Positions 3,721 to 64,000 of a stretch of DNA of 64,000 nt are shown piece by piece (position 1 is the stretch's first letter; every line of letters begins with the position of its first letter). The position numbers and the translations under genes are program-made. The stretch spans positions 372,001-436,000 of the forward strand of contig JARUPZ010000036.1 of the NCBI GenBank assembly GCA_031213475.1, read 5' to 3'. The notes below the pieces were generated by a model. It did not search any database, was not told the DNA's origin, and worked only from the letters and a program-made list of their open reading frames with translations. Origin of the DNA: Nereocystis luetkeana. Its lineage: Eukaryota > Sar > Phaeophyceae > Laminariales > Laminariaceae.

Positions 3721-4687
3721 TATATTTCTATCTCCTCGGCTACTTCGATACTAGACGTACGTATCCATTCTGCGATTACAACTATCTTATTTCCCGACGG
3801 TTGGTCTATATACATACTGATGGTTGGTCTCTACCTGGTGTCCTATAAACCAAGGTACTCTATCACACCAGACAGACCTTGCTTGCACCAAGCGCGAAGC
3901 GCCGTGAGGTGTCTGGCGAGTCGCATGAAGGGTGAGAGCTGCATCCTACCAAGAACCGCTTTTGAGGCGGACTTGGATATGGACGACAGCTTCAATGAGT
4001 TGATTCAATTTCCGGTGTAGGCATTTCCAGAGACAGCAATGGGAGCACTATGTAACTGCCTCTTGGGGGCCTTACCTTGAACACTACGTGATACGATCAT
4101 TTCCCACTTGTGCGAAGCAAAGGTTATTTGTCTCGCACAAATGATCTAACTCGACAACCAGCTGTGGGCGACCGCCAAAAATAAAATAAAATACGGTACC
4201 CTGGTTGTCTAGCTCACGTAGTGAACGGCATGTTTTACAGCAGTGTCGTTGCCAACCGACGCCAACCCAACCTTTACCAGGTATAAAATAGAGGGCGTTC
4301 CAGGGGGGTAGAGTGTTATGAGGCTTAGATTGGGTGGGCGATTGGTTAACATTGTACCTTCAGCCCAATGGACTAAGACCTTAACACTTAACACCATCAC
4401 GAAATATGGCCAAAAACAATACAAGGTACCACATACTTAAGTCAATTGTAACGAGAAAAACATTTGACTGCGATGCAGCGCTTGATTGCAATTTCCATCT
4501 GAAATTTCAGTACCGTACTTGTGACGCCCGTCCAAAGCTAAGTCGTTCCTGGCTTTTTGATTCTTCGTCTTTTTAACCGAGTTTCAGTCGTGTTTCTATT
4601 TTTTGGGGTATATCTTCGGTCATCGGTCATATATCTCTCTCCCGAAGAAACAAAAAAACCAAAGCCCAGCACGACACGTCTCGGTTG

Positions 4688-5429: not shown

Positions 5430-5519
5430 TTAAAGCACCGCAGTCCCGTTTTGGGGACAAACTACTTGAAATTTGACGGGCTTGTCCCCAAAACGGGACT
5501 GCGGTTCTAAAGGGGTTAA
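5430..5519. mobile_element. MITE-D
   Basis: A near-palindrome with inverted repeats around gcagtcccgttttggggaca, bounded by TTAA at both ends. Confidence 0.85.
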
Positions 5520-7484: not shown

Positions 7485-7635
7485 CAATGAAGCATCTCTG
7501 CAGCGTAGCTTTGTGACGACAGAACTTGTATCTCTTCTATTAATAGGATTGAAGAATCGGCACGGACACTGGTTGTGCTGGGTTTCGACGGGTAGAACGA
7601 GCGGTCTAATGTGAAGGAACACACACATGGATGGC
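7485..7635 (+). mobile_element. LINE-A 3' end fragment
   Basis: Diverged plus-orientation 3' end, finishing gtgaaggaacacacacat. It carries TATTAATA at 7538-7545, at the same site as the copy at 41525. Confidence 0.8.
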
Positions 7636-10699: not shown

Positions 10700-11100
10700 A
10701 GTGGTTATTTTTCCAATAATATAAGAATCCCATATTTCGCCATTTTTCGTCTTCGATTATGAGCAGGCCGGAAGGCTTTCAATTTTGACTATCTTTCCGA
10801 TACACAATAAAAATACTATGCGCAGACACTCTAATGTTTCTGATAAAATGTTCAGTTTTTACAGGTATCCTATTTTTTCTGATATTTTCATATTTTCCCT
10901 ATTTTCATATTTTCCAGCAGGTGTACTTCCGGAGACTCGGAGTACCTGGTATATAATATATCAGAAATATAAACGTATACCAGGTACCAGGTATATAAAC
11001 AATGAAACCTTTTTCTGTTTTTAAACCACAAAAATATTCAAAATATGAAATACCATACCTGGTAGGATTTACCAAGCCAGCGGGAACACTTTTGACACGA
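10700..11100. other. AT-rich stretch with four TACCWGGTA motifs
   Basis: No coding signal. Motifs at 10943, 10978, 10985 and 11056, two of them overlapping. Confidence 0.6.
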
Positions 11101-11917: not shown

Positions 11918-13095
11918 GTTCTCACATCATCTCTAGAAATGAAGGAGTCCGTGGTCATACAAGGGAGCTGGAGTCCTAGGAAGATCCGAAAACCCATGAA
12001 AATAAAAATTCGATTCGGCTGCACGACGCTTCCCAACCAAAGTGAACTAGTATACCAGGTATCATTTTTTTTTTTTTTATTTCTTTGCTCATCCCATTTT
12101 TTATTATCTTCGCCCATCTTCTTCTCTCGCTCCTTCCAACTCGTAACTCAGATCCGGGGTCACGTAGCAAGCTCTTCTCCCCCCTTCCCGCTACGGTACG
12201 TGCCTTCATTTTTATCGCGAGAAGATTTCAGCCTTCTCTTTCCTCGTCGACTCGCATCGAATTGTGCCTACCCACGCTGCAAGGCGCTCTCAACAATTGA
12301 ATCCTCTTTCATTTTTATTTTTGCAAATAAAGTCAAAGTCCAACCCACCTGGGGCTCGAACCCAGGACTCAAACACAAGTAGAATTCGAGGTTAACCACT
12401 TGAACCGTCGGGCCGATTGCAACTCGGCAGCAATACTAATACCAATGACGTGAAAAACAGGTACATACTGCTGCCTCGTGAAACACAAAGGGTGGCTGGT
12501 GCTCTAGTGATGGTGTGCGCGCTGGTCGTGGGTTTCCGTGTGCTGTGCTGCTGCCGTTCTCCATGGCCACCTCATCACCTCAGCCCAATCGACCCGCTCC
12601 TTCGCACGTGCTCTCGTTGCCACTCCCTCTCAGTCCTCCCCATTCCCGAAAACAAGATGCTCCTCGCCCTTGCGGTTCGGATCGGAACAATTCTCGCCCA
12701 CGGCAAGTTCAATCCGTCCCTTACCCGGTCGTCCACGCTCTGTCTCCCTCCTCCTTCGACGTCGAATCCAGCCTCCTACCGGCGGAATAGACTTACCGTA
12801 GTTCAACCTGTGATAGCGCCTGCCTCCGCGCACGGACATCCCGATCGAACATTGCTGCTCTGCCGCTGTTGCCTAAAAACGACGCGCGAATCGGAGGTGT
12901 CCGTGCCTGACGCACCACGTACGACCTAACGCTACTGCCATGAGCAAGCCTCGCGGCCACACGCAGCAGCGAGAAGGTATCACTCCTCGAGGGTGAGTCC
13001 GGCCTTACACCCGCCAGAAAGACCTACCGCACTCGCTTCAAGCCTGATGGGGCATGCCTCGCAGCATACCTCGCCGATGCAGCGAAGGGAGCGAA
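11918..13095 (-). mobile_element. Element E, copy 4, diverged, split by SINE-C
   Basis: The 3' part at 11918-12050 (gaaggagtccgtggtcatac) and the 5' part at about 12440-13095 flank a SINE-C. Divergence from copies 1-3 is much higher, so this is an older lineage. Confidence 0.65.
12063..12420 (-). mobile_element. SINE-C, full length
   Basis: Poly(T) at 12063-12079 and B box ggctcgaacccagg near 12353. A TACCAGGTA sits at its poly(T) end (12053-12061). Confidence 0.88.
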
Positions 13096-21228: not shown

Positions 21229-21482
21229 TGTTGTGACTCGTAAGGATTTCACGTCAATTAACCTATTAACTACAGTACCAGGTAATAACTAGTCGGTAGG
21301 TTCCATAAGCCGACTAAGTGACTGCAGTCGCCACGTCGTCTGATGAGGCCAGCTGGTCGCCAGCCGACTTCTCGGCTCGAGTCAAACCCAGCAAATCGGA
21401 CGGTCGGCGCCTCTGGCACACGAGTAACTATTACTCTGACTATTAACTAGTTGGTGACTTGGGTCGTGCCGATCCACAGCTC
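21229..21482. mobile_element. Inverted-repeat element I, copy 1
   Basis: Left part taataactagtcggtaggtt and right part actattaactagttggtgac are inverted. TACCAGGTA at 21276-21284 lies near the left end. Confidence 0.5.
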
Positions 21483-46700: not shown

Positions 46701-49700
46701 ATGTTCGACCGATGGTTTTCGCAAATATCCCTACAAATACGGGGGACCATAGTAAATAGGACCTACGGCATGCACAAAAACCTATATGTATCCCTTTTTT
46801 AATGACGACATATTTGGTCCTATTTACTGTGGCCCCCCGTGAACAATGATGATGCTCAACATACCAGGTATGGCCCTGACTATTTAATAGATTGACTATT
46901 TAATAGTTTAGCATAGAGCAACGATAGTGCAACGATTGTATATCCCCCATGAAGGTCATATGAAACCCGCAGTACGCGCGATGGAAGTATCACACGCAGC
47001 TTGCATAAATGAGCTTCGACGAAATCCTCGATCCCACACCTAATGTTCCGTTTGTTTGTTTTTTACACCCAGTAGTGCTGCCTGGTTTCGCGTTTGCCCC
47101 CGCCCCGAAATCATGCATTGCCGCCGCCAGCAGCGAGACGACAAGGCGCTGAACGGTCATGCCTTTGGTACTGACGGAGAGGGCTGCAGCGATGACTTTG
47201 ATATGTCGACTACCGTCGGGATATCACCTGCACAACCAGCGCATGAGGTGCAGACCAATATATATATTATATATATATATGTATATATATACCTCTCAGG
47301 TATATATATATATTATATTACCTGGTATACATTCATCGACATTGCAAAGGACGTCAGAGACTAAGAGTGCAGTGGCTAAAGCTCCTTGGGGTTTAGGTTG
47401 AGTTGGAGAGTAAAAACGACGGAACACGATACGAAGTATGATGGTTATCGCTTACCAGGTATGTTGGTTGTCGCTCTGGTCTCATTTTTTTCTCCCTCTC
47501 TCTCTCGCTCTCTCTCTCACGCCCACTCTCTCTCTCTCTCTGTCTCCCCTTCTCGTGTGCTCCTCTCTCTCTTCTTCTCCTCGGCTTACTTTCCCTCTGT
47601 CGTCTGTTTCCATCCCTTGTGCTTCATCTCTATTGCCACCTCTCTTCGGTTTGTTTCTCCCTCTCGTTTTATTTTTACTTTTTCACCTTTGGTTGCACCG
47701 GCGTTATCGTACCAGTTGCTCAAGTTCGAGTCGTTCTCCAATCCCAGCGCCACGGACTTGAGAGCGCTCGAATTCAAGAAGGTAAGCGTACCGCTGTAAG
47801 TATCGCATAGTGGAACCAACATGTTTCGTGGTACTCGATTGACCGTATCGGCTGCTGCATTACATAAGAACTGCACCCGATTTCTGAGGAAATACTACTT
47901 GGAGTTAACCCTTTTAGAGCTACAGTCCCGTCTTAGGGACTAACCACTCAAATTATTGGTAGTTTGTCTCCCAGACGAGACTGCGGTCCTAAAAGGGTTA
48001 AATTGAGATGTACTTGTGTAAGAGCTTATAAGCAGCACGAGCAGAGGGTCTACAAAAGGCATCTTACACGCGACGACAAAACGAAAAGGCATTTTGCTGT
48101 GGCCTCAGAAATATTGAACATTACCGACACACAAGAAGCGTTTTGTGGCATCAGTGTGTCCTGCCTCCTGACGTGGATATGTATTTGCGCGAAGGCGCGA
48201 GTTGGCAAAATTCGGCGAGCATCGACGAGGCGCGTCTCTTTAGCTCCCTCCGCTGCATATTACTGTAGAAAATTGTTTGTTGTGACGTGTCTTGACCTCG
48301 GACTAGCCCCTGTATACGTGCATCTATGTATACCAAATGTGCGGCATGATTCGTGTGATGAGATAACTTAGTATCTCACGTGTGGATAGATAGCACACTA
48401 TTCATGCCGTATGTCACTAGTACACGTGTGGTGAGATAGCACACCACCTTAGGACGTTTTTCCTACTGTAGCTGTCTTTTTATCGACAGTACTCGTAGAA
48501 AGAATGTAAATGCTAATAATATGGAGCGATGCGTCTGTGGAAAAGCCTCCATGATATGTGTCCAACGCCAGCTTTTTGTTGGTGTTATGCCCGTGCCCTA
48601 GGCCAGGCCCTCATCCCTTTCAAGACTGCAGTCCGGTGTTGGGAACAAACTATTACGGGGGGCCATAGTTAATAGGACCTATGGTATACATAAAATCCCT
48701 TATATTTAACCGTTTTTACTAACAATATCTGGTCCTATTGACTGTGGTCCCCCGTAATAGTTATCATTTGAATGGTTTGTCCCTAAGACGGGATTGCGGT
48801 TCTAAAAGGGTTGAGACATAGCGTATGTTTGGAGAAAATCGGCTTCCAAAATCCGTCCCAGAGGGGGGTGTGAGGCCTTTTTGACTATAGTATACTGTAA
48901 TTTGGACGAACTAACATTTTTTTGTATATTTTGCTGAGCTTAAAGTAGCTAGTCTTGCAGCATCAAACTATGAGGCAAGAGGTGGAAGTAGGTATCGAGC
49001 GGATCTAGACGTATCCAAAAGGTCTCTACATCTGGTTTATGACGACCAATAATTTCACACCGGGTATGATAGCAAGATCATATGCAATGATAACTTGAAA
49101 TAACTCTACCCTGCTATTATTCCTCTTGACGCCCTGATCCCACCTCGACTACATTCCTCGAAGGGTCATTTTTATCGGAGAGCTTTTTTCCCAATTTTTC
49201 GACATTTTTTTCGTGCAAAATTTCAATCTTCCATATTTTCCTGGGTTTTTTTTTTCCAAATATTGGAATTTTAACGAACTTGATATTTTTGGTTCTGGAG
49301 AGTTTCACGAATAGTGACAGAACGCCTCCGTACATTGATACATATCTCCAATTATTTCCAAACTTTGGAAATTATGGAAAAAACGCTCTCCGATAAGAAT
49401 GAACCTAACTGACCCTGAGTACGGTATTAGCCGCCGGCAGGACCCACCAAGTACCCTGATTGATCGCATCCTGATCCGATGACCGTAATCGAGCGTTTCC
49501 GCCAAACGGTCACAGCGAATAAAGAAAAAAATCTCAGCCAGCACATACCAAGGACGTGTGGAGTTTTATTTGTATGATGCCCTGCGTGTAATCAGCGTTT
49601 CCTTTTCTACTTTTTTGGGATTCCTTCATGTTTCTTTCGCCGCTTGTGAGCGATCGACGTCAAAGCTTGTGTTCCATGTGTTCGGATGGCATGTGAGACA

Positions 49701-52700: not shown

Positions 52701-55700
52701 TGCGGACGACGATTCCGAAGTGCAGACCGCGCTACGCAATTTTTTGGTCAAAAACACCCCTAAGGCTCCAAGCTCACAGATTATGAAATCTACTCTGCTC
52801 TGGGGTACCTGGGTACCAAACCTGGTTGACTTGGTCATAAGTCGGTACCCGGGGACCGCCAGAATATATTATTACGGCGGACCATAGTATATAGGACCAA
52901 ATATTGTTTGTATAAATACGTAAATATATACCAGGTAGGTTTTTGTGTGTCCCGTAGGTCCTGCTGGTATTTACTATGGTCCCCCGTAATATAGTAGGGT
53001 AGACACTTTGGGGTACCCGAGTACCAACCTGGTTGATTGGTTATTCATACTCTTGTAGGTACCTGAGTACCGCTAGTGGGTGGGACATTCGACTTTATTT
53101 GCAAAAATAAAAATAAAAATAAAAAGGATTCAATTGTTGAGAGCGCCTTGCAGCGTGGGTAGGCACAATTCGATGCGAGTCGACGAGGGAAGAAAAGGCT
53201 GAAATCTTCTCGCGATAAAAAATGAAGGCACGTACCGTAGCGGGAAGGGGGTAGAAGAGCCTGGTATGTGACACCGGATCTGAGTTACGAGTTGGAAGGA
53301 GAGAGAGAAGAAGATGTATGTGCGAAGATAATAAAATGGGATAAGCGAAAAAAACAAATTAAGAAAAAAAAAGAGTATACTCCCTACCAGTCACGCCCTT
53401 GCAACAATGGTACTGTATCAACAGAAGACCGTCTATTTTGGGCGCGCCAAGATGGTTTTAGGTCTCTTATTATACTGTTTTTAGTGTACGGGCCAGTGAA
53501 GAGGTCAAACCGCGATCTCCTATTAATACTGCATAACGCCGCTGGTATTTGATGGACGCGCCAAGGCGTTCTTGGTCCTCCAACATGATGGTTTTAGTGT
53601 GGGGGGCGTTCAGTCAAGGGGCCAAACCGGCAACTTCTAGTATCGGTGATGACGGTGACCGGTGAACAGCAGAACCCTGGGGCAGTGGCTGCCGAACATG
53701 AAGGCGCTATTGTTGCTGTTGTTGTTGTTGTTCTCACATTAACTCTCTGACGAAGGAGTCCGTGGTCACACAAAGGTGCTGGAGCCCTAGGAAGATCCGA
53801 AAAACAAAAAAAAATCGAAAATTCGGCTGCCTCAAAATACACGAGACGGAAAAAGCGCACACAAGATAAAACCAATGTGCAAAACTGAACTAACATGGCC
53901 GCGGGTATATCCTCTCAACTATAATATAGAAGAGTACCCCCGTTCCCACCACTAACCAACTCGTGGCTGCTGACTACAGCGGATGCTGTCTGAAGTGCTG
54001 CCTGCACCGTACGAAACGCACGGTAGTCGTGAAAACGAAAGAGGAACACACCTGCCTTCTATCTGGAGTGCTGTCAGAGTGAAGACTCGCGGATATGCAG
54101 TGAAAAAAGGAGCAATCGAACCTTACTGCCACACGAATATCAACGATCGCCATCTCTTCCTGGACTGTCTGACACAAAAAGGTGCAGCACAGTTATGATA
54201 CCACGTCCCTGATAATTGCGTAGGTTATTCCCCATGAAGGGTATACAACTCGTTAAACTACAAAAACCAGTGACGAGTACCGGTAGATACTATTCTGCCT
54301 CGTGAAAAACAATACCAGGAAAAAACAAACTATGACTGCTTCTCTCGTGATGATAGTGTGCGCGCAGATCATGGGTCTCCATGCACCGTCTTCCTGCCGC
54401 TCTTCATGGCCGCATCATCGCCTTGGCCCAATCCACCCGCTCCTTTGCGCGTGCACTCGTTGCCATTCCCTTCCAGTCGTTTCCCTTTCTCCGTCATCCT
54501 GAAAAACAAAATGCTCCTCGCACTTGCGGTTCTGATCTGGGAAATAAAAATTCTCGCGCAGGGGGAGGTCAATCCGTCTCTTCCCCGCACGTCGACGCTC
54601 AGTCTCCCTCCTCCCTCGTCGTCGAATCCAGCCTCCTACCGGCGCAATAGACTGTGCCGTAGTGTGGCCTGTGGTGGCGCCTGCCTCCGCGCATGGACAC
54701 CCCGATTGAGCATTGCTGCTCTGCCGCAGCTGCCTAAAAAAGACGCGCGAATCGTAGGTCTCCGTGCCTGACGCACCACGTACGACCCAACTCTACTGCC
54801 GCCTGAGCCTCGCGGCCACAGGCAGCAGCAAGAAGGTATCACTCCTTGAGGGTGAGTCCGGCCTTACACCCGCCAGAAAGACCTACCCCACTCGCTATTA
54901 GCCTGATAGGGCATGCCTCGCAGCATTCCTTGCCGAGGCAGCGAGGGGAACGGAAGTACATTATCTTAGAGCTATATACTACCCTGGTATGTATCAACGG
55001 TCGGTAATATAGGGATCGTTTGGATTATGATAGGGATATCAAACGGAGGTTATATTACCGCCCAGAGTGATACATAGGAGACCCGTCTTTTAAGGCGCGT
55101 GAACGCCTCTTTTATGCTCAACGCCTCTAGACCTTAAGGACGGCACGCCCGTTTCGGGGACAAATGACGTGAGCTTAGACTTGGATGTTTGTTTCTGTAG
55201 TGCAGTGCAGTATTACGGGGGACCATATTAAATAGGACCTTCGGTACCCACAAAAACCTACATCTTTCGCTTTTTTTCTAAATATTTGGTCCTATTTGAT
55301 ATGGTCCCTCGTAATAGTGAAATAGTCAATCTACTTCAATGACGTTGCCTCTGATTCGTAAATTATTAGTCCTTCCTCCCTCTCCCCGCTCTCCTTGTGA
55401 TACACGCCGCCATAAATTATCCTAGGAAAACCCCGACAAAGAGGCATCGGCCGTCCCTGGCACTCCCCTTGTGCTGTCGAGCGGGTGGCAAAACACCGTG
55501 GCCACACCTGGTCGCGGTTGGCAGAGCACCGTGGCGACCCCTGGGAGGGGTAGGGGGCATGGGTGGAGCACGCCCAGACGCCGCGGTAGCCACTGGCCCA
55601 CCGCCTCGGCAGAGGATGGCATGGAGCAGGAGACGTCGGCGTGGGAGGAGGCGTTGTCTCGGGCGGTGGGTGGGCTTGTGAGGGGGGACGCGGACGCCTG

Positions 55701-58700
55701 TGCTCCAACCTTGCGCACCCAGTGAGTACTTGGCATTTGCTGTTCACACCCAAAAAGAATGGAACTATGTTGAAGTAGGGTTTTGAGCTTAGTAAATGGT
55801 GGGGGGGCGCTTGTTTTTCGACCTTACACCCACTGAAACGAGTACATATAACAGGTGGTGGGCTATGTTGTTTTGAAAGGATTGATCGTGGTGGGTAGAG
55901 CCTATTCCCCCGTGATGCGTACGCAGTGAGCCGGTGAGTACAACTAAAAGTTTTTGATACGATTTTAACGTACGTGCAGCGATACACCTATAGCCCTTCC
56001 GCATATGCCGACTTCTTCAACTCACGTACACCCACACCGGAACATATTCGAACATATGCGCATACCAGGCGTACTTTTAACGTATGTGTACGCAGCTAGA
56101 TGGCAACAGTCAGTTGACCGACCTATTTATAGGTGTTGCACCAGTACTTGAAACATGGCATATGCGCCTGTAGGAGTCCAAGCTATTTCCCACCACCACC
56201 ACCACCTCAATTTTACGTCGATTATGTCGCCATGCACGCCGTCCTTCCATGTACTGCAATGTGATTGGCTTGCAATAGCCGCCGGAGAAGATCCGGGTCG
56301 GGATTGGCCAAGAAGCCCCGCGAGGTGTTCCAAGCGGCGTTGACATGTCGTGCGCCGAGGAGCCAATCCTTTTTTGGGACAGAGCCAAAGCCGACTGCCC
56401 TTTCCCTGGGAAAAAAGTCAGACGGGCTGAAGGGAGAGGAGGAGGGGCAGGAAGGTCGAGGTTTTGGATCGATGTTCCCCGTTAGTCCCGCCAACGCAAC
56501 GTCGGGGCAGCCATCGTCCTTCAAGGTATGCTTAAAGTTTCACCCCTTTTGTGCTGCGCTGTGCATGTACCCAAATATGACTCTCATTCCTAGTAATTAG
56601 TCCCCACAACGGGAGTCCAGTGTTGGACGAGATAACTCCTTTCGAAGAAAGTAAACGCAGTATGCGCACGTTTTTTTATCCAAACTGCTCTACTTGGAAT
56701 TTGCTTTGGCAGGATTTTTGCAGTGGTCGTAGGGGTACCGCAAAAGTGAGCATACTCTATGTTCACGCTGTTTGCCCCATAAAAACGTTTCGGTTTGTGG
56801 GGTGAAGGCTTACACCCTACGTTGTTGGGGGGAAACGTATTGAGAATCGCCTGCCTACGAGTAAAACTGTTGATAGAATGTGAGTTGTTCATTTTTTGGT
56901 CGGAGTTCCACGCGGAAATTAATGAAACGTTTTTAGCTAACAATTAAAAAAAAATGGCATCAGCTATGAAATCGAAGATTCCGTCGTATTGAAAACAAGG
57001 TGGGGGACGCCCTGTCGCATTCACAGTGAAAACTAGAGCCTGCGCTAAAATCGGAGCTTCTTCTGAAGGCAATGTAGCCAAAATGGGCCACCTTGAAAAT
57101 ATCCTTAATCCCTACCTTTTCTATTAATAGTCGTCTTACTTGGCGATGTCGGACCATGCAGCAGCATCGCTGGTGCGCCCCGATGCCATGCGCCCTCTGC
57201 AGACTGCCAGTACCCTGCTTTCGTGTTTTCGCGGAGGGTTTCTGTAACAAGAAGCTTGCTCATGTTTGTGTTTGTACCCCACTCTGTCGTATTCCCCATT
57301 GCGTCACTGTTCAGGGCCGCCTTTGTTATATGATGTTAACAGGCACCCCTCGCGCAATCAAATATTGAAATATTCGATATTCCAGGACTGAACTGGGATC
57401 GACTACTTAAATGAAATGGGTGTCATTCGAACGTTCCTAGTTTGAAATTTTATCCAAATATATTTTTTCGAACAATAAGAAACTTTCTACGAATATGTGA
57501 TTCGAACGCACGATGGAAAACCCAACGGGTCAATCCACTGTTACTCATTTATTTACAGACTGCGTACGTCATACCAGGTACCAGGTACGATATATCTGGT
57601 ATATACCTACAGCAGTAGTATTTATTTTTGTCATCACACACCCCTTTCCCGTGCGTCTCTTGTTTCGGTTTTTGGTATTTTTTTGTCCCTGTCCTTCCTT
57701 TTCTCCCCCAACTCACGTCGTAGGAGAATGTGAAAGATACCAGGAGGAACGGGATGTGTTAAAAAAGGAAACGAGGAAAATAGACGAATGTGACATGGAG
57801 GAGTTTGATGCACTATATCGGGGGACCATAGTCAACAGGACCTATGGTATACATAAAAACCTACCAGGTATATGTTTAACCATTTTTACTAACAATATTT
57901 GGTCCTGTTAACTATGGCCCCCCGTAATAGATAGCAGCAAGAAAACGATAGATCGCTATCCGAGGAGACATATGGTGGCCACAGGCTGCCAAACAGGAAG
58001 GGGATAATATTAGCAAAACGCTTTTATGTACTATATGGAAACAACGTAATGAGCGCCCAGTTGTTGGAGGTGTCTCTATCAGGAGTAGGAACGGTGTTCC
58101 GTCTCGAAAGGGATGCATGGTCAATGTTCCAAACACTAAGGCAAGCAACAAACGAGTACTCCCCCTCCTTCCCTCCTTCCCATGCTCCTCTTTTTTTGTA
58201 TTCCTTTCACGCAATTGTTTTCCTGTTTTTTGTGTTGATTTTGTAGCCGTGGGAGGACCGTAGGCGGCCGCTATCGCAAGGTTTCGGCACGTGCCGAGAG
58301 TCTCTGGAAGACAGACTGTCGGTATCACCATCGCGGTTGTCGGTATCACCAGCGAGGCTGTCCGCTGGAGGACTGTCTTGCTCCGGCACGCCGACCCGGA
58401 GGTGAGATGTCGTGTTGGATCTCGTATCGAAAGTTCCGATACAGGGGGGGGGGCTACGATTTATGAGAGCTCCATTTGAGAGAAACACCGATGCAAGAGA
58501 TGTCCGACGGCCTGGCACGGGCATACTAAACGCTGTGTAGTACCCATTGCGGTTCAAGGGAAATACCGGTTTAACCCTTTTTAGGCTGCAGTCCCGATTT
58601 GGGGACAAACTACTTGAAATTTGATTGGTTTGTCCCGCAAACGGTACTGCACACTGAAAGGGCTGAGAGGAGCCCGCGATGCCTGACACACACTATTAGT

Positions 58701-61700
58701 AGTACACATTAATGATACACCCCTGCATGTATCTATTCGACGCGTACGTAGTGATTGGATATCGCATACCAGGTGTATTTGTTTCAAGAGTGTTACCCGA
58801 AGCCAATCCGAAGCCTACCACCTCCCGCCCGCTTTGTGACCCTCGCCACCCTAATTTCGTCGTCGTTGTTCTTCTAATTGTCCTTCTCCTGCCTCGCTCA
58901 TCTACACCGTTTAATTATCCCAATTCCTTTTTCCGTGATCCTGCCCCTGTCCGTCCCTCCACCTCCTCTAATGCTTCCGATTCGCGTCGATTTCCGACCG
59001 ACTTTCGCTCGACTACCGATCGCCTTCCTTTCGATTGCCGACCGGGTTCCTTTCGACTACTGGCGGTCTTTCGACTACCGACTGGCTATATTTCAACTAC
59101 TGACCGCCTTCTGTTCGACTGCCGACCGCCTTCCTGTCGGTTGCCGACCGGCTCCCCTTCGATTACCGACCGCCTTCCTTCCTGCCTTCCGTTCGACTTC
59201 CAACCGCTTTCCCTTTCATTACCCGATCGCCCTCCCATCGCGCGCAGTAGAGGAGGGGCGCGGTTTTCCCTCAGCCCGCTTTCGAACCTCCCCGGTCGCT
59301 TCGACTTATCCCCCCGGAGGGTATCGGACGGTCGATCGCCCATGACCCCGGCAGAGAAGGTGGACATGGTGGCAGCCTCTGCCCTGTCTGCCAAGGTGTC
59401 GTGGGACTTCGCAGACACGCCTGCGGTAGGTCTCCAGCTTCCCAGTAGGCTGTTGAGTATCGGAGATGATGGTGCTGGTTTGCCGGAGGCCGAGGAAGAC
59501 AGGGGAGGAAGGGAGAAGGGCTTTGGAAAGAAGGGAGGGAATGCCAGTTCGGAGGAGGACTTTGGTGAGTCTGCGGGCGGGTTTGCATGCGGAGGAGGCG
59601 GTGGTGGAGGCGGGGAGGGGGATGAGAGTGAGGGCGAGGGTGAGGGGGGCCCCTGCCATCGCTTCAAGCTCAACCTTTCTCACGGCGGTGGTGAAAATAT
59701 GACCCTCTTAGGTGTGAGCGAGGAAGACGGGAATGGGGAGAAGGAGGAGGAGGGAGGGGGCGGATGGGTGTCCGGGTCCAAGCGCGACAGTGACGTTGCT
59801 GGAAAAGATTGTTCATCGGGGTCTCCTGTGGATGTTTCGGTCGACGGTGCCGTTGACGACGCTGACGGGAAGATTGAGGGTGGGGTTGGTGGGGCGATCG
59901 TCGCCGAGGCTACCCGCCCGGACGAAAGTATCCAACTGCTGTTCGGATCTGGTTCCGACGCCGTTGTCAAAACAATCGGTCAAGAGCAAGAGGAGGGAGA
60001 TGTGGCCGGAAGCATTGGCAAGGAGTTCGACCAAAAGGAGAAGAAGGAGGGGGGAGGGGTTGGGGGAAGCATGGTCCAGGGGTTCGGCCAAGAGGAAGAG
60101 GAGGGAGGTATTGTGGGAAGCATTTTCAAGGAGTGCGACCAAAGAGAGGAGGAGGAGGAAGGGGGTGGGGAAAGCGGGAGCGAGTTGTTTTTCTCTCCTT
60201 CTGCGGACCGTGTAGTTGGTGCAGCTGAAAGCTCGGAAAACGAGAGCGGGGTGTTCTCGTCCCCTTATGAAGAACGCGCTGTAGGGGGAGTGGAAACTCT
60301 GTTGGAGCTGGAGATGCCTCCTCTTCTGGAAGTTGCCGATGGTGAGGTGCTTTTTGTGCCGTCGGTAGGCGGAGAAGATGGCCTCTTGGTCGTCGGTCAT
60401 GATGATAGTGATGACGATGGTGGGGATGACGGTGATGATGAAGGAGGTGAGGATGATGATGATGAAGATGAGGAAGATGGCGTTTCATGCGTCGGCGAAG
60501 ATAGCGAGCCTGCTGGGGTGTCTGGCGCTGCGGGAGCAGCGTCGGGGGACGCGAGCGACAGCGGGTACGCCCCCGATGACGACACTTCAGAGAGCGAAAG
60601 GAAACTGGCCCTCGACTTAGCCGTTCGGGAAACGCTCGAGAACTTGACCACCGGAGTCGCCATCCTGATGAAGGACGACGAGTTCCTGCTCTGCTCAGAG
60701 GAGCACTCAGAGACGCCCTCGGAGGAAGGGGCTGAAGCGGTGGAAGGGGTTGGACCGGAGGGAGGAAATGAAGCAGAGGGAGAGGATGGAGTGACAGACG
60801 AGAAGGATGTGGATGAGCGAGAGGCGTGCTCGCCAACGGCAGTGTCTGGTGCGTCTTCCTCCGTCGTGGTTGGTGTCCAATCGCCGACTGAACAGGGCGA
60901 CGAGGGAGGGGGGGGGGAGGTGAAGGAGGACGAGGGAATTCAGGAGCTTCAGTCGGGTCTTAAGCAAGGTGAGCGGCCCTTGATTTCCCTGCCTCTTTTG
61001 AGGGGTGAGAGGGTATACACATACCATAGTAAACTTAGTACCAGGTATATTGTATCGATGGGTGTTTCCTTAACTCCGTTAGAATTGCACCTCTTTGGCC
61101 GTTAATATAATCCTCGTTTGGACTCTGATATGGACATCAAACCGTTCTGATATTCCTGGCCCCTTTTTTTATTTTGAGTCATGCTACTCGGAGATTTTCG
61201 TAGTTTGGGATAAATTGTGGATTTTTTTTACAGAAACAAAGTTTTTTTTTTTTTTTTTAATACTTTACCTTGATTCACCCCCCACTAGTTCCCAACTATT
61301 GTAAAAAAACAGATCTTCCACACTAGTTACAGGTAGTTCGTTCCGAAAAAGGATAGTACACTTGTTGGGGTTTTACTCCTTCATTAAATCCCATTTTTCG
61401 CTGCATGTACTGCTGTAGTGCTGTAGTCGTGCCTACTCCTAAAATGTGTGTAGAGCAGTTAGTGCATGAGTTTTTCAGGTTGCTATCCCCTTTGACCCGA
61501 TGCACCTCATTATCGTGTAGCACGTCAAATAACGACTATTAATAGTGCGTTGCTCTCAATTGTCCATGAAAAAATCAAAAGGATTCAATTGTGGAGAGCG
61601 CCTTGCAGCGTGGGTAGGCACAATTCGATGCGAGCCGACGAGGGAAGAAAAGGCTGAAATCTTCTCGCGATAAAAAATGAAGGCACGTACCGTAGCGGGA

Positions 61701-64000
61701 AGGGGGTAGAAGAGCCTGCTATGTGACCCCGGATCTGAGTTACGAGTTGGAAGGAGAGACAGAAGATGTGCGAAGATAATAAAATGGGATGAGCAAAAAA
61801 AAAAAAAAAAAAAAAACGTGCCTCAGTAAAAACGGATACTACCATCATCGTCATGCTTCGCGCGGACGGTACACCTCCTTGCAATGCAATTTCAGAAACG
61901 CCCCTTATCCCCTACCCCAGCAGCAGCCTCTTGTAGCTACTACAGGGAGCATAGTACTCAGGATCAAATATGCTTGGTAAAACTATTACGGGGGACCATA
62001 GTTAATAGGACCAAATATTGTTTGTAAAAATGGTGAAAGATGTAGGTTTTTATGTATACCATAGGTCCTATTAACTATGGCCCCCCGTAATAGTGGAACA
62101 TAGAGTTTGTTGTGATTGGATTTGGCCCTGGTTACTATGGTTCCCCCGTAATATCATAGAGTAGCTAATATGAGCTGCTTCGTGCGGGCGATGTTGCTCT
62201 TATATAAATATATATATATATATATACCAGGTATATATATATATATTCTTGCACTGTTTACGTATCGTCATTTGGGGGGGGCAGTGTTGTAGGGGTTCAC
62301 CCGTATACCCCTTCTACGAGACACAAAAAAAGTAACCATAAGCCAATCAGAACCCGTCAACCGTTGGTTTGCATTCGCCCTTCATTCTCTCAAACAATGT
62401 CCTTCAACCATAGTGTCGAATAGTTGCTGAACTGAACTGAAGTGTGCGTATTAATCGTGTACGGGGGGACATATATATCAGGACCAAATATGCTTAGTAA
62501 ATATGGTGGGGTATACCAGGTATAAGTTTTCGTGTTTATCGTGGGTCCTGATTACTATCGCCCGGCGTAGTAGTTTTAAAATCCCGAAGGGGTCAAAATG
62601 GAGAAGACTAAAATACCTTTAGAACTACCCCCGCGTTTTAGACTGATCTATCTGTTGAACAGATCAATGGTCTATCTACAGTAGTAGAGCTTGATCTGAG
62701 TGATCTATTAATAGCACATGTTTCTCGTTGGATTTGTACTGTTTGTACGTACAGATCGTGCACAAGATATCAGAACGGCAAGCTAGGATCTAAAAAAATT
62801 ATAGTATGCAGATCGTCATCTGTCCGATCTGTCCGATCTGTCAAATACTGGCTGCACTTGTGAAAGGGATACCCTAACGATGTATCTGCTCTTTCCTGTG
62901 ACCTCCGTGTCTGTCTTTTTTTTTCGCCGTCGATCGGTGATGGGTTATGAAATGTGTCTTAGACTCGCCCAAGGACCTGAAGCTTGCTGTCGGCGAGGAC
63001 TTAAAGGAGGAAGAGCCTCCCGTGCCCAGGCTGGAGTGGGGGGTGAAGAGCATCATCGTGGACAGCCCCGTGACTCCGACTCGGTAAGCTGTCAGATGAC
63101 TCGCAACACGGTAGGAAAGGTGTTCTATTTAACGCATAGCATGACCCGAATTGTCGTGTATGTATGAAGCCCTGTGTTGTTTGTAGAGAAAAGGAGGGGG
63201 AGAAAGGGGTGTGTGGGCAGTCGACGAAAAAGGTGCAGGTGCGTTCTCTGCTGTCTTCCTCGGTGGTTCGGTGCGTCGGTAGCATTCCTCTGCGTCTCGC
63301 CACCGCTCTGCAGCACCACAGGTAGCATGGTGTATATGGAGGAATGAAAAAATGGGATTTCCTGGCGCAGACCGCGCACGTGTTGACCATGGTTCCCGCA
63401 GGGGGAAAAGTTATGTCCGCCCCTTCTTTCCCCCGTTTTAGTTCTAGCGCGCTCGCTTTTTTCCATGTTCTCGCAGAGATGTCATCTTCTGACCCGCCTC
63501 ATCGCACTTGTTCACCTCGATTCCCGCAGAGAACACGCCTCCTGATAACAACAATCCTCTTCCTATTAATAGTACGATATTTCCTTTTTAGTTTCAACGT
63601 GCACACGTTTCTTTCCCTTTTCCCGGAGAGATATCGCCCTCTGACCCGCCTCTCTTTCTGTGTCTGTTTTTTGTTGGTCCCTGCTGTTTTATTGTGTGCG
63701 TGTGTTGTTTGTCGTGGCAGCTACGACGATGTTTCCTTCCTCGTGGACGACGGCACTGCTGCAGACGTCTGCCCTACCATTGACATTGACGTCGATGTCA
63801 ACGGTCCCGAACATCAGCCGGAAGGTTCGCTTGAACCCGACCCAACGGCTCTCACGGCATCTGCGCCAGAGCCGTTGAAAGAGGGATCGCCATCGACCGA
63901 TCCTCCCGCCGTGCTCGGAGATGAAACTGTACGCGACGACAAGGATGATGAAACGGTGTGCATCGATGTCGGAGATGATGAGGATGAGGATGACGATGGT
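28609..64000 (+). CDS. Large multi-exon host gene, product unrecognised (open at right edge)
   Basis: I assembled this from GT-AG (one GC-AG) splice sites and matching codon phases. Coding exons: 28609-28650, 32125-32162, 32323-32433, 32753-32818, 33636-33756, 35050-35090, 47131-47247, 47716-47781, 50389-50474, 51301-51403, 52024-52194, 55426-55721, 56279-56525, 58247-58401, 59275-60968, 62963-63083, 63721 to the edge. From 32125 onward every junction is phase-compatible, giving about 1,240 residues without a stop. The first exon ends in phase 0 but 32125 needs phase 1, so at least one exon is missing between them; the 12-kb intron 35091-47130 may hide others. I recognise no domain. The product is charged, low in hydrophobic segments and very acidic near its end; no signal peptide or membrane span is visible. 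The introns are packed with repeats. It could instead be two adjacent genes. Confidence 0.6.
28812..30053 (-). mobile_element. Element E, copy 2 (apparently full length)
   Basis: From the (GTT)n tail to gaggcagcgaggggaacgga. It shares both endpoints with copy 3, which defines a length of about 1.24 kb. It lies in the first intron of the host gene. Minus-strand frames of up to 124 codons exist, but they overlap and I recognise nothing in them. Confidence 0.88.
30689..30747 (+). repeat. (TAC)n microsatellite
   Basis: About 16 TAC units with one TGC variant; intronic. Confidence 0.95.
30947..31078 (+). CDS. Small ORF, 43 residues, unproven
   Basis: Starts MAAELQQYYEPERYAYSGQP and ends LLTTLVAYI before TAG. 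The composition (Tyr, Pro, Gln, then a hydrophobic end) looks more protein-like than the surroundings. It could be an intronic ORF, an exon missed in the host gene chain, or chance. It contains a TACAGCAGTA motif. Confidence 0.25.
   Translation: MAAELQQYYEPERYAYSGQPAPEAYVAQSVWWPALLTTLVAYI
31826..32052 (-). mobile_element. LINE-A 3' end
   Basis: Starts at gtgttcttcacattaaaccg and continues to the cacgacatacgcaatctatg box. It lies in an intron of the large host gene, antisense to it. Confidence 0.88.
32125..32162 (+). CDS. Exon, 38 nt, phase 1 in, phase 0 out
   Basis: The acceptor is tttgtggtttcag and the donor is CCATACCAG|GTATGT. The frame reads HPRLLAALAPYQ. The alternative frame runs into a stop in the next exon, which supports this reading. 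The donor lies inside a TACCAGGTA micro-motif at 32157-32165. Confidence 0.5.
32323..32433 (+). CDS. Exon, 37 codons, phase 0-0
   Basis: The acceptor is gtgctactgcag and the donor is CGAAAG|GTATGG. The peptide begins DRSSIGSKTPLTFHQKKGKF and ends DHLDRIRK. The base composition is GC-richer than the flanks. No domain was recognised. Confidence 0.65.
32753..32818 (+). CDS. Exon, 22 codons, phase 0-0
   Basis: A pyrimidine-rich acceptor (ctctctcagcag) precedes NLEQFFVPILPP, and the exon ends ...CGGIY at the donor TAC|GTACGT. Confidence 0.6.
33636..33756 (+). CDS. Exon, 40 codons plus 1 nt
   Basis: The acceptor is tgtattttcgcgcag and the donor is ACTG|GTGAGC. The peptide starts DALEDFTRATIKRAQSVHQM and looks helical and charged, followed by a Gly/Ser-rich turn. 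It joins in phase to the exons on each side. Confidence 0.65.
33757..35049. other. Intron, unique sequence
   Basis: The intron between two host exons; no repeat recognised. Confidence 0.5.
35050..35090 (+). CDS. Short exon, 41 nt
   Basis: A long T-rich tract followed by ctttgccag makes an excellent acceptor. The exon completes the phase-1 codon of the previous exon and reads ECPWPVAPAVCYE to GAG|GTGCCA. That donor is weak, so the 3' boundary is uncertain. Confidence 0.4.
35325..35545 (+). mobile_element. SINE-C, old diverged copy
   Basis: Matches gacgagggaagcaaatgctg and the following body at lower identity. Near 35449-35480 it carries extra sequence including TACAGCAGTA. Confidence 0.6.
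35870..36359. mobile_element. Foldback MITE with 3-bp TAA target duplication (Harbinger/Tourist-like)
   Basis: About 490 bp. The ends gaccaactattatgggaaat and atttcccataatagttggtc are perfect inverted repeats, flanked by TAA at 35867-35869 and 36360-36362. More inverted similarity continues inward. The length and 3-bp TWA-type duplication fit PIF/Harbinger-derived MITEs. No transposase is present. Confidence 0.8.
36363..37706. other. Intron, unique sequence
   Basis: No gene seen. TACCAGGTA occurs at 37225 and 37707. Confidence 0.45.
37724..38078 (-). mobile_element. SINE-C, full length
   Basis: Poly(T) of about 28 and the complete body and head. It lies in the 12-kb intron, antisense to the host gene. 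Confidence 0.9.
38080..39620. other. Intron, mostly unique, dense in micro-motifs
   Basis: Holds TATTAATA at 38384, 38443, 38498 and 39191, and TACCWGGTA at 38511, 39051 and 39319. A possible exon at 38758-38850 does not fit the phase. Confidence 0.45.
39622..39748 (-). mobile_element. LINE-A 3' end, very short
   Basis: A (TG)n run then the first 105 bases of the LINE-A 3' end, broken just after ctgtggtcacaaa. A TACCTGGTA follows within about 20 bases. Confidence 0.85.
39800..39991. mobile_element. MITE-B split by MITE-D
   Basis: Outer halves gggggcatagtaaataggac and gtaggtccttttcaacatgg; the ends are decayed. Confidence 0.75.
39834..39930. mobile_element. MITE-D inside MITE-B
   Basis: TTAA duplicated. 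The flanks caaata and tgtaaaaat join to the MITE-B centre. Confidence 0.9.
40340..40560 (-). mobile_element. LINE-A 3' end split by MITE-B
   Basis: cattaaaccggtcattctac to cgattcgtcaata, then a MITE-B (about 40413-40496), then resumption with atacaagttctttcgtaaaa. Confidence 0.7.
40413..40496. mobile_element. MITE-B, shortened, in LINE-A
   Basis: Inverted ends ccgggggatcccggaccata and ctatggtcccccgtaa; the centre is shortened. Confidence 0.7.
41057..41283 (+). mobile_element. LINE-A 3' end inserted in SINE-C, itself split by MITE-D
   Basis: About 115 bases of LINE-A (tagtatctctgtggcgtagc onward), a complete MITE-D at the TTAA in ggtTTAAtgtg, then the last bases with the CA tail. The surrounding SINE-C resumes at cccacgctgcaaggcgctct. 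Confidence 0.9.
41170..41266. mobile_element. MITE-D inside LINE-A
   Basis: The cleanest case: ggTTAA...TTAAtgtgaag, whereas empty LINE-A copies read ggtttaatgtgaag. Confidence 0.93.
41441..42100 (-). mobile_element. LINE-A 3' end, 5'-truncated
   Basis: It contains the full LINE-A 3' UTR with (CA)n at the left end, matching 13143-13800. It carries a TATTAATA micro-insertion at 41525-41532 relative to other copies. Confidence 0.9.
42283..42379. mobile_element. MITE-D
   Basis: TTAA / TGAA flanks; intact foldback. Confidence 0.85.
42467..42571. mobile_element. MITE-B
   Basis: Inverted ends ttacggggggccatagttaa and ttaactatggtcccccgtaa. A telomere-like ttagggttaggg lies just before it. Confidence 0.85.
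42622..42728. mobile_element. MITE-D
   Basis: TTAA on both sides. It contains a short duplication of the ttggggacaa segment. Confidence 0.85.
42745..43392 (+). mobile_element. LINE-A 3' region
   Basis: Plus-orientation, from the end of the coding tail (gacgaacgcggggcggagac) through the UTR to gaacacacacacat at about 43392. It carries TACCTGGTA at 43237-43245. Confidence 0.85.
43478..43716. mobile_element. Small inverted-repeat element G, copy 1
   Basis: Ends catTCTTATCGGAGAGC and GCTCTCCGATAAGAatgac. The interior matches 49160-49410 in reverse orientation. The target duplication is unclear, possibly TA. Confidence 0.65.
43712..43869. mobile_element. MITE-D plus a MITE-D half
   Basis: 43712-43772 is a right half; 43773-43869 is a full copy with a decayed right flank. 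Confidence 0.7.
43970..44074. mobile_element. MITE-B
   Basis: Matching inverted ends; TA on the right side. Confidence 0.85.
44126..44362 (+). mobile_element. SINE-C, 5'-truncated
   Basis: Starts at aaaggattcaattgttgaga and ends in poly(A) of about 18. Confidence 0.88.
44586..44690. mobile_element. MITE-D
   Basis: TTAA on both sides; an extra tcccaattg near the centre. Confidence 0.82.
44692..45715. other. Intron, no supported exon
   Basis: Only short ORFs; part of a decayed MITE-D at 45660-45700. Confidence 0.4.
45716..46063 (-). mobile_element. SINE-C, full length
   Basis: T-rich tail, body, and B box near 46003. A decayed MITE-D half lies on each side. Confidence 0.88.
46064..46119. 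mobile_element. MITE-D right half
   Basis: tgtccccaaaaggggactgc to gggTTAA; the left half is lost. Confidence 0.65.
46197..46378. mobile_element. GGGTC-rich element H, copy 2
   Basis: Starts cagggctctttcacgggtca and ends tgacccgtgaacagccgg, an imperfect terminal inverted repeat. Confidence 0.55.
46379..46474. mobile_element. MITE-D
   Basis: TTAA on both sides; follows a GGGTC-rich element. Confidence 0.87.
46738..46840. mobile_element. MITE-B
   Basis: Inverted ends acgggggaccatagtaaata and tatttactgtggccccccgt. Confidence 0.82.
47131..47247 (+). CDS. Exon, 39 codons, phase 0-0
   Basis: The acceptor is ccgccgccag. The peptide begins QRDDKALNGHAFGTDGEGCS and ends PAQPAHE before the donor GAG|GTGCAG, which is weak. 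A TA-rich intron tract follows directly. The 12-kb upstream intron could hide further exons. Confidence 0.5.
47260..47316. repeat. (TA)n tract
   Basis: Alternating TA containing tacctctcaggta near the centre, followed by TACCTGGTA at 47319. Confidence 0.85.
47488..47700 (+). repeat. CT-rich tract before an exon
   Basis: Dense (CT)n and T runs leading to the acceptor at 47715; probably the polypyrimidine region of the intron. Confidence 0.8.
47716..47781 (+). CDS. Exon, 22 codons, phase 0-0
   Basis: A long CT-rich intron tract (about 47486-47700) precedes the acceptor cgtaccag. The peptide begins LLKFESFSNPSATDLRALEF, and the donor AAG|GTAAGC is strong. Confidence 0.65.
47905..48001. mobile_element. 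MITE-D
   Basis: TTAA on both sides; intronic. Confidence 0.87.
48002..48608. other. Intron, unique sequence
   Basis: No repeat or exon recognised. Confidence 0.45.
48609..48814. mobile_element. MITE-D split by MITE-B
   Basis: The halves at 48609-48650 and 48760-48814 flank a MITE-B. Confidence 0.82.
48653..48757. mobile_element. MITE-B inside MITE-D
   Basis: TA on both sides (48651-48652 and 48758-48759); the host MITE-D is continuous around it. Confidence 0.9.
49160..49410. mobile_element. Small inverted-repeat element G, copy 2
   Basis: Reverse-orientation relative of 43478-43716 with the same terminal tatcggagagc. Confidence 0.65.
49949..50050. mobile_element. MITE-D, decayed
   Basis: Starts acccttttagaactgcac and ends gcagttcttaacgggtca; the middle is diverged. 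Confidence 0.55.
50389..50474 (+). CDS. Exon, 28 codons plus 2 nt, GC donor
   Basis: The acceptor is gtgtgtgcgcag. The peptide begins LHLDEALNVTSHRRGNVKDI. The exon ends GAGAGCAG|GCAAGC, a GC-AG intron with otherwise perfect donor context. The split codon AG|G joins in phase to 51301. Confidence 0.6.
50599..50693. mobile_element. MITE-D, diverged
   Basis: gaaccgcagtcccgtttggg ... ccccaacaggactgcgattc; the right flank is GTTAA. Confidence 0.7.
50730..51036. mobile_element. Inverted-repeat element I, copy 2
   Basis: ctgtgagccgg at the left and ccgactcacag at the right. The interior matches copy 1 (agtgacttaagtcgtgccga). It lies in the intron before exon 51301. Confidence 0.55.
51301..51403 (+). 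CDS. Exon, 1 nt plus 34 codons
   Basis: The acceptor is gcacgctgcag. The peptide, PENVEVFHKRHKEEEAAYRY and onward, is very rich in Lys and Glu and probably helical. The donor is CCCAG|GTTGGT, phase 0. Confidence 0.65.
52024..52194 (+). CDS. Exon, 57 codons, phase 0-0
   Basis: The acceptor is cttactgcag. The peptide begins VTDAMYNFVLKLNLATTEGK and later contains FMRRWAVGRIANGE and FLQSLGIDIDKK. It looks like a folded globular segment, the most domain-like part of the chain, but I cannot name the family. The donor is AAG|GTGAAC. Confidence 0.7.
52236..53075 (+). repeat. Degenerate repeat, ctggttgattg / tacccgggtacc units
   Basis: At least five units of 75-90 bp (near 52236, 52326, 52405, 52800 and 53012) share cctggttgattg, catactcggg and ggtacccggg. 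A MITE-B interrupts the series. Confidence 0.75.
52872..52989. mobile_element. MITE-B with TACCAGGTA insertion
   Basis: TA on both sides. TACCAGGTA at 52929-52937 is extra relative to other copies. Confidence 0.88.
53088..53372 (+). mobile_element. SINE-C, 5'-truncated
   Basis: Starts at gactttatttgcaaaaataa, just after the tRNA-like head, and ends in an A-rich tail. Confidence 0.85.
53711..54955 (-). mobile_element. Element E, copy 3 (apparently full length)
   Basis: Very close to copy 2 across its entire length, with a (TTG)n tail at 53711-53730 and the same right end. It lies in the intron between exons at 52194 and 55426. Confidence 0.88.
55213..55314. mobile_element. MITE-B
   Basis: TA on both sides; close upstream of exon 55426. 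Confidence 0.87.
55426..55721 (+). CDS. Exon, 98 codons plus 2 nt
   Basis: The acceptor aaattatcctag is immediately preceded by an in-frame stop. The peptide begins ENPDKEASAVPGTPLVLSSG. It carries an imperfect duplication of about 11 residues (WQNTVATPGRG then WQSTVATPGRG), then an Arg-rich stretch and an acidic helix-like end. The donor CCCA|GTGAGT is strong, phase 2. Confidence 0.65.
56279..56525 (+). CDS. Exon, 1 nt plus 82 codons
   Basis: The acceptor ttgcaatag has a weak pyrimidine tract. The frame starts RRRRSGSGLAKKPREVFQ and ends SGQPSSFK at AAG|GTATGC, phase 0. Phase agrees with the exons on both sides. The opposite strand is also open here, which I take as a GC shadow. Confidence 0.55.
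57816..57927. mobile_element. MITE-B with TACCAGGTA insertion
   Basis: TA on both sides; micro-insertion at 57862-57870. Confidence 0.87.
58247..58401 (+). CDS. Exon, 51 codons plus 2 nt, Ser/Arg-rich
   Basis: A T-rich acceptor (gtgttgattttgtag) precedes PWEDRRRPLSQGFGTC. The middle repeats RLSVSPSRLSVSPARLS, a likely disordered, phosphorylatable stretch. The donor is CGGAG|GTGAGA. Confidence 0.65.
58571..58664. mobile_element. MITE-D, diverged
   Basis: TTAA at the left, CTGA at the right; lies in the intron before the large acidic exon. Confidence 0.75.
58985..59245 (+). repeat. Degenerate 20-24 bp tandem repeat at an intron 3' end
   Basis: Units such as gaccgccttcctttcgatta. Open in the frame of the next exon, but it carries an acceptor after it, so I read it as intron. 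Confidence 0.65.
59275..60968 (+). CDS. Large exon, about 564 codons, Gly/Glu/Asp-rich
   Basis: The acceptor ggttttccctcag fits the phase of the preceding exon, although the same frame is open far upstream through intron repeats. Order: Ser/Arg-rich start (to about 59340); MTPAEKVDMVAASALSAKVS, a compact segment; a poly-Gly run near 59590-59620; short hydrophobic islands (HRFKLNLSHG, ESIQLLFGSG); four degenerate copies of a motif of about 18 residues at about 59980-60190; an almost pure Asp/Glu/Gly tract at 60400-60480; and a helix-like segment, SERKLALDLAVRETLENLTT, near 60592-60651. The donor CAAG|GTGAGC is strong. The two long minus-strand ORFs here are composition shadows. The likely role is a disordered acidic region, but no function can be assigned. 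Confidence 0.75.
61050..61570. other. Intron, AT-rich
   Basis: T-run near 61240-61258, TACTGCTGTA at 61408 and TATTAATA at 61537. Confidence 0.5.
61573..61816 (+). mobile_element. SINE-C, 5'-truncated
   Basis: Starts at aaaaggattcaattgtggag and ends with poly(A) of about 22. It lies in the intron after exon 59275-60968. Confidence 0.88.
61986..62090. mobile_element. MITE-B, intact
   Basis: A good reference copy: TA / ttacgggggaccatagttaa ... gtaa / TA. Confidence 0.9.
62128..62152. mobile_element. MITE-B terminal fragment
   Basis: ggttactatggttcccccgt, right end only. Confidence 0.6.
62203..62248. repeat. (TA)n palindrome centred on TACCAGGTA
   Basis: A TA run on both sides of the motif at 62225-62233. 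Confidence 0.85.
62459..62570. mobile_element. MITE-B, diverged, with TACCAGGTA insertion
   Basis: Ends diverged. The micro-insertion at 62513-62521 falls in the AT-rich centre. Confidence 0.72.
62963..63083 (+). CDS. Exon, 121 nt
   Basis: The acceptor aatgtgtcttag gives the phase needed by the previous exon (G|AC). The peptide reads SPKDLKLAVGEDLKEEEPPV and then RLEWGVKSIIVDSPVTPT. It ends ACTCG|GTAAGC, phase 2. Confidence 0.7.
63721..64000 (+). CDS. Exon, open at right edge
   Basis: The acceptor ttgtcgtggcag is good. The split codon CG|C is completed, and the frame then reads YDDVSFLVDDGTAADVCPTI and stays open to the edge through a Pro/Glu/Asp-rich stretch ending in a GATGAT-type acidic run. 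Confidence 0.7.

Follow-up and report, generated by a model that had tools for sequence, protein, structure and literature searches.

The word TACCWGGTA is a real footprint-like sequence that is spread across the genome of the brown alga Nereocystis luetkeana, and we read it, with a probability of about 0.72, as what repair leaves behind after excision of a cut-and-paste transposon that targets TA and would be cleaved 5 nt inside its ends. Footprints of this kind are known; their length and abundance here are unusual. Some copies are seen as additions of CCWGG plus a second TA within established repeat copies, the word as a whole has a preference for particular flanks, and it is accompanied by minor words that fit paired overhangs. 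The overhang itself, the parent ends, the low copy number and the type of transposase are what we infer from this record.

Results

The initial annotation of the window, the whole stretch of 64,000 nucleotides analysed here, had counted 39 copies of TACCWGGTA against some 0.5 expected by chance. All 39 are present, 38 of them at exactly the start given, while the last begins at 62514 and not at 62513 (Table 1). The excess stands, with a mean of 0.44 copies after dinucleotide shuffling (maximum 3 over 100 shuffles); the reversed-letter control ATGGWCCAT is absent from the window and has a single occurrence in 200 kb elsewhere. Counting beyond the window, which had been proposed as a check, gave 67 copies against ~1.9 expected in 200 kb of the same genome, sampled as 20 stretches of 10 kb, one from each of 20 other contigs (L012-L031), with a range of 0 to 9 per stretch. 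Extrapolation to the assembly of 465 Mb in 1987 contigs gives ~156,000 copies (95% bootstrap 105,000-209,000), a figure that rests on a non-random sample of 20 stretches, taken at position 100,001 in each of the first 20 contigs. The window and L012-L031 together make up 264 kb, and a wider set comprises 304 kb. The centre letter of the motif is W in 106 cases and S in 13, and the exact word far outnumbers its single-letter variants. Mutated scars are also present; a hand sum of the excess single-mutant words gives an only rough mean scar age of ~8% divergence.

Table 1. Coordinates of TACCWGGTA footprints and of TATTAATA copies in LINE-A, in window positions.
Feature	Position	Strand	Evidence
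TACCAGGTA footprint	4275..4283	.	exact match
TACCTGGTA footprint	10943..10951	.	exact match
Double footprint TACCAGGTACCAGGTA, starts 10978 and 10985	10978..10993	.	
TACCTGGTA footprint	11056..11064	.	exact match
TACCAGGTA footprint	12053..12061	.	exact match
TACCAGGTA footprint in LINE-A, inherited insertion common to 43237, L026 and L029	13291..13299	.	siblings
TACCTGGTA footprint in LINE-A	20593..20601	.	siblings without motif
TACCAGGTA footprint next to TACAGTA	21276..21284	.	
Double footprint TACCTGGTACCTGGTA, starts 30359 and 30366	30359..30374	.	
TACCTGGTA footprint	31571..31579	.	exact match
TACCTGGTA footprint	31733..31741	.	exact match
TACCAGGTA footprint	32157..32165	.	exact match
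TACCTGGTA footprint	33206..33214	.	exact match
TACCTGGTA footprint	35115..35123	.	exact match
TACCAGGTA footprint	37225..37233	.	exact match
TACCAGGTA footprint next to TACTGTA	37707..37715	.	
TACCAGGTA footprint	38511..38519	.	exact match
TACCTGGTA footprint	39051..39059	.	exact match
TACCAGGTA footprint, then second half unit	39319..39327	.	
TACCTGGTA footprint	39761..39769	.	exact match
TACCAGGTA footprint	42221..42229	.	exact match
TACCTGGTA footprint	42397..42405	.	exact match
LINE-A site, two units: mutated TACAAGGTA, then TACCTGGTA (9-mer at 43237)	43230..43245	.	
TACCTGGTA footprint	45617..45625	.	exact match
TACCTGGTA footprint	46143..46151	.	exact match
TACCTGGTA footprint	46670..46678	.	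exact match
TACCTGGTA footprint	46689..46697	.	exact match
TACCAGGTA footprint	46862..46870	.	exact match
TACCTGGTA footprint	47319..47327	.	exact match
TACCAGGTA footprint	47453..47461	.	exact match
TACCAGGTA footprint in MITE-B	52929..52937	.	4 empty siblings (TA), 1 filled
Double footprint TACCAGGTACCAGGTA, starts 57572 and 57579	57572..57587	.	
TACCAGGTA footprint in MITE-B, TA of 52929, W opposite	57862..57870	.	18 empty siblings (17 TA), 1 filled
TACCAGGTA footprint	61039..61047	.	exact match
TACCAGGTA footprint within TA microsatellite	62225..62233	.	
TACCAGGTA footprint in divergent MITE-B copy	62514..62522	.	sibling alignment
TATTAATA, second class, CTAG target of LINE-A	7538..7545	.	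14 empty siblings (13 TA), 1 filled
TATTAATA, second class, LINE-A position of 7538	41525..41532	.	14 empty siblings (13 TA), 1 filled

That CCWGG and a second TA were added after the host repeat had landed, as first proposed, is borne out by two analyses. A catalogue of insertions of 4-60 bp between repeat copies in 264 kb, built blind to the motif, holds 172 sites, among them 24 distinct 7-bp insertions. Eleven of these have the form TA to TA-X-TA; seven are exact TACCWGGTA (three at one LINE-A position), and the other four are its mutated relatives TACAAGGTA, TACCTCGTA, TACTTCGTA and TAGCTGGTA. In the sibling test, a joined-flank search of 304 kb, an empty sibling was found for 11 of 123 TACCWGGTA sites and a filled one for 4; among 1000 random other TAN5TA sites used as controls, the numbers are 12 and 160. 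The Fisher p of 8e-9 for this contrast ignores shared descent and is inflated, because several of the 11 sites with empty siblings are one event: W13291, L026 and L029 carry one LINE-A insertion, and W52929 and W57862 lie in one TA. W43237 was scored against LINE-A copies that are one unit shorter.

The six filled and empty cases on which the proposal had been based each differ from the other repeat copies at the motif, but they represent fewer than six independent events. Those at 13291 and 43237 are not independent: both descend from one inherited LINE-A insertion (also in L026 and L029), to which 43237 adds a second, mutated unit. At 52929 and 57862 the same MITE-B TA is occupied with opposite W. 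The empty site had been described as a plain TA, which holds for 4/4 siblings of 52929 and 17/18 of 57862, but not for 13291, where the strict test finds nine empty siblings (7 TG, 2 TA) and two filled, nor for 20593, where the one strict empty sibling reads TC and looser alignments have GTA. At L026, the empty siblings read CA in 7/9. The siblings of 62514 align at 71-74% and none appears in the strict test; its exact target TA is ambiguous and is probably a third one in MITE-B, the others being that hit by 52929 and 57862 and a different one hit by L041:5408. A TA target with duplication of the TA is thus seen directly in repeat copies, with TG or TC in some sibling targets.

The flanks of the motif are not those of an average TA. 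After flanks resembling a neighbouring unit had been dropped, the profile of TACCWGGTA is A/T-rich at about -8 to -5 from the TA and avoids T at -1. TA is present at -7/-6 in 25% of half-flanks compared to 8% around all TAs, an excess of which part may be decayed older units. The flanks of TACCGGTA, TACCAGGGTA and a set of one-letter variants fit this profile (0/2000 background TA-flank resamplings matched their scores), those of S-centred words fit it only weakly (p 0.055), and those of TATTAATA do not fit it in profile scoring. The flanks of TAGGWCCTA fit as well, yet this word was set aside as presumed part of MITE-B.

Tandem doubles of the motif number 10 in 264 kb (4 AA, 3 TT and 3 mixed W), more than the one or two estimated by hand from random hits. 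Existing scars may therefore be preferred as targets, or some of the doubles may stem from slippage; those with mixed W imply either two separate events or one event whose W later changed.

In the proposed mechanism, the transposon would integrate at TA and duplicate it. On excision, the non-transferred strand would be cleaved 5 nt inside each end, and the two identical 3´ overhangs, (TA)CCAGG, would anneal through four G:C pairs around a single A:A mismatch at the centre. Mismatch repair would turn the centre into A or T, giving CCAGG or CCTGG, and loss of the mismatched base would give CCGG, that is TACCGGTA. Pairing one out of register would create two mismatches that yield TACC + AG/CT + GGTA when settled on one strand, and CG or AT when settled apart.

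This predicted set is partly present. TACCGGTA has 22 copies where 4.7 are expected and TACC(AG/CT)GGTA has 12 where 0.82 are expected, 11 of the latter outside a local array in L041. The AT word, TACCATGGTA, occurs once. The CG word, TACCCGGGTA, has five copies, all in the L041 array and 0 elsewhere in 304 kb, and was dropped as support for the model. The array itself, L041:7531-7939, is made up of TACCCGGG units. The remaining seven two-letter classes total 7 against 4.4 expected, and the CA/TG words, which an overhang of CCTGG would predict instead, are found twice against 0.52. The minor words point to parent ends reading 5´-CCAGG, although the AG word was already known when this fit was made. 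The mechanism is well supported and coherent, even if it was partly framed after the fact.

No certain parent was found among 941 TACCWGG...CCWGGTA pairs placed 60-10,000 bp apart in 304 kb. Three pairs match well inside their ends. L026:2141-6126 was rejected because its outer flanks are also alike (14/14), placing it within a larger inverted duplication; this duplication, L026:1781-6486, has long and mostly identical arms. W52929/57870 was rejected as a pair that joins two MITE-B copies. The third, L042:3062-9191 (C2:6447062-6453191), spans 6130 bp, and both of its ends start with TACCAGG. These ends are alike at 23/28 bases, the outer flanks at 4/14, and a DDE_1 gene is enclosed at 4747-5742 on the minus strand. 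To gauge chance, pairs were also taken across loci, and 5 of 31,593 were as alike with unlike outer flanks, corresponding to ~0.15 expected among the 932 compared; sorted by eye, four of these five consist of a whole scar with another scar-like unit or a scar flank behind it, unlike the L042 ends. In the window and L012-L045, no further match with <8 mismatches to these ends was seen. Judged by eye, the acidic residues expected of the DDE domain are presumably replaced in the enclosed gene, which would make it a dead copy. The L042 element is suggestive only, with perhaps one chance in three of being a relic of the parent with a degenerate pogo-like gene. It is the single candidate that came out of looking for elements with TACCAGG...CCTGGTA ends and a DDE gene, as had been recommended.

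Other searches yielded no parent, neither among the best 40 listed TACCWGG...CCWGGTA pairs of up to 1.2 kb in 264 kb, nor among 90 listed inverted repeats (of 314 in 264 kb) that are bordered by TA and measure 60 bp to 5 kb; these are mostly one repeat inverted. Clustering of 133 half-sites in 304 kb revealed no parent end. TACCWGGTG half-sites, considered as element ends, look like mutated scars, and a half-site pair in L022 and L025 that shares 8 nt is at about chance level by estimate.

Among transposase domains, DDE_3 (PF13358) and Transposase_1 (PF01359) have 0 matches genome-wide, the control for the latter also being without signal, and DDE_1 (PF03184) has 28. Four of the 28 DDE_1 loci were examined in 10 kb and one, present as two identical copies, in 5 kb. 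The four 10-kb loci have no clear terminal repeats by exact 9-base seed search, which missed the imperfect ends at L042 because exact seeds are required. Open frames at L032, L033, L036 and L038 match DDE_1, one of them also matching the Tc5 DNA-binding domain below its cut-off. The pieces L040-L043 are interrelated at ~62-80% DNA identity, and L044 and L045 share 4975 identical bp in which no element boundary is visible. Taken together, the pogo-like DDE_1 genes of L032-L043 are diverged members of one small family and have open frames; they may be transposases that are dead or have been domesticated.

A second class of TA-bounded micro-insertion with its own target preference is represented by TATTAATA, found 57 times in 264 kb against 5.9 expected. 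The window has 19 copies (2427, 7538, 23575, 27001, 31224, 31714, 38384 and 12 more to 63564), most of which sit in CTATTAATAG. Empty siblings exist for 6/71 sites and filled ones for 4/71, compared to 9/1000 and 98/1000 controls. Its flank profile has T-A-C before the TA and the mirror image after. Three further words are in excess in 264 kb or lean the same way: TACAGCAGTA/TACTGCTGTA (26 against 1.3 expected in 264 kb), TACGAGTA/TACTCGTA (46 against 11 in 264 kb) and TACWGTA (93 against 39, with empty siblings at 2/112). The flanks of TACWGTA, TACGAGTA and TACAGCAGTA lean to the TATTAATA profile (p 0.0005 or less), for which only the shared C beside the TA is offered. As a scar, TACAGCAGTA was rejected, with empty siblings at 1/34 and TA in none of its siblings.

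Discussion

The staggered-overhang origin first suggested for the W centre of TACCWGGTA agrees with insertion at TA, with the flank preference and with the minor words; the part of it that calls for a parent and a transposase has so far produced the L042 candidate but no certain example of either in 304 kb. Overhang-derived footprints have been described for excision of Sleeping Beauty and other Tc1-mariner elements, and Sleeping Beauty has a 3-nt overhang and a CAG footprint (PMC7827188, PMC8151067, in the sections drawn on here). The scars in Nereocystis would resemble those of Sleeping Beauty and Tc1 in the TA target and its duplication, in the few terminal bases from 3´ overhangs and in the mismatch-derived W centre, and would differ in the 5-nt overhang and the CCWGG core. 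Footprints are also described for Stowaway and Tc1-mariner elements (PMC1925063, PMC3660474, PMC2874221, in part). In grasses, fossil footprints of Stowaway MITEs were inferred at TA sites, with one TA reused; as far as the sections drawn on go, these are variable end fragments of 1-4 bp at single gene sites with elements in relatives, whereas here one exact word dominates and the element is a candidate only (PMC1925063).

The TA target and 7-bp scar set the present words apart from piggyBac, which targets TTAA and is footprint-free. Minos leaves a 4-nt end footprint, and the scars are like it in having more than 3 nt plus the TA. A scar of the Minos type itself is not supported, since the TACGAGTA-type words considered for it have empty siblings at 0/55. 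Membership of the parent in Tc1/mariner is, on sequence grounds, a candidate assignment only. In Ectocarpus, a survey lists 17 Mariner-Tc1 families with almost 12,000 copies, mostly non-autonomous, and calls brown-algal transposon biology underexplored (PMC12477816, in part); elements of this superfamily can thus be abundant in a brown alga, and the words "footprint" and "excision" are absent from the main text of the survey. A search by title found no work on such a genome-wide scar record, and no paper was found with TACCAGGTA, TACCTGGTA or CCAGGTACCAGG as a whole word, subscription papers and supplements being outside the scope.

The alternative that survives best, although we consider it unlikely, is that the 7-bp unit was inserted directly and that no full element was ever at the site, for example by repair that adds a fixed CCWGG at a TA cut by a transposase or nuclease, or by capture of tiny end fragments. 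More than 100 scars in 304 kb without a certain parent, and the dominance of one exact word over its single-letter variants, would be natural outcomes of such a process. A fixed 5-nt word with a W centre, however, needs a templated source, which transposon ends provide, and the minor words fit paired overhangs. The excision reading can also account for scars without visible parents, as a low-copy family that stays active for long would leave one scar per jump, and its scars would come to far outnumber its elements.

Considerably less probable is programmed or near-obligatory excision, in which one life stage or cell lineage would retain the elements and the tissue that was sequenced would have lost them by excision, with the excision of internal eliminated sequences (IES) in ciliates as a loose analogy. 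Scars do exceed visible parents, and pogo-like DDE_1 genes are present, three of the four examined at 10 kb being without end repeats. Against this, scars are shared by descent among LINE-A copies and some are mutated, which makes them heritable and of mixed age, and plain hopping explains both observations.

Selection or slippage acting to multiply a short functional site or a minisatellite unit is more improbable still: the tandem doubles would suit it, 7/10 having the same W, but it is contradicted by the empty sites left by single insertions at TA within LINE and MITE copies, simple duplication does not give the 3/10 doubles with mixed W, and it offers no account of the flank preference. 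That the motif is an ancestral repeat consensus carried by LINE-A or MITE-B, raised at the outset as the reading that could undo the proposal, is the least credible of all, for while a single LINE-A insertion passed by descent to at least four copies (13291, 43237, L026 and L029), the scarcity of filled siblings relative to controls contradicts it for the bulk of the sites.

With repaired excision footprints as the preferred reading, one further, if rather doubtful, possibility is that the >100,000 scars are the itinerary of one or two transposons, of very low copy number or nearly always removed, that kept jumping over a very long time and are excised with an unusual 5-nt stagger. TATTAATA would then mark a second hopper with a TACTAGTA-like target, the first would have left the 6.1-kb candidate in L042 as a relic, and the related DDE_1 genes might supply transposase in trans. 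If this is true, excision is the rule and not the exception. The footprint studies considered here deal with single sites or assays. With approximately one footprint per 3 kb, transposon history, target choice and double-strand-break repair would become readable from genome sequence, and every scar is a possible phylogenetic marker. As only 7 bp stays behind, a mobile element of this kind may be difficult to see in other ways, and a short exact word can point to it.

Other repeats in the window were noted alongside. A MITE of ~98 bp, present at 41170-41267, 42283-42380, 11605-11702 and elsewhere, has CCCTTTTAGAACCGCAG ends with mostly TTAA alongside and looks piggyBac-like; at 41170 it interrupts a TTAA within LINE-A. 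Scans of viral sequences for a MITE end and for the reverse transcriptase of the window found no match, and occurrences of TACCAGGTACCAGGTA in five viral contigs were judged chance. The reverse transcriptase (14479-15657) has Ectocarpus relatives at 61% identity among the best 120 of 2230 listed matches, which also contain better full-length ones. The same 120 include a partial match of 92% over 59% of the query in a Luteolibacter MAG, which is taken for contamination. Contigs of the Oligoflexales g2_MAG_00001 (L006 and L007) encode relatives at 58% and 81%, probably from algal contamination of the MAG. Degenerate tandem repeats (family D2) lie at 9573-9974 and 11270-11602, and the abundant CGGTGCGGTT words probably stem from them.
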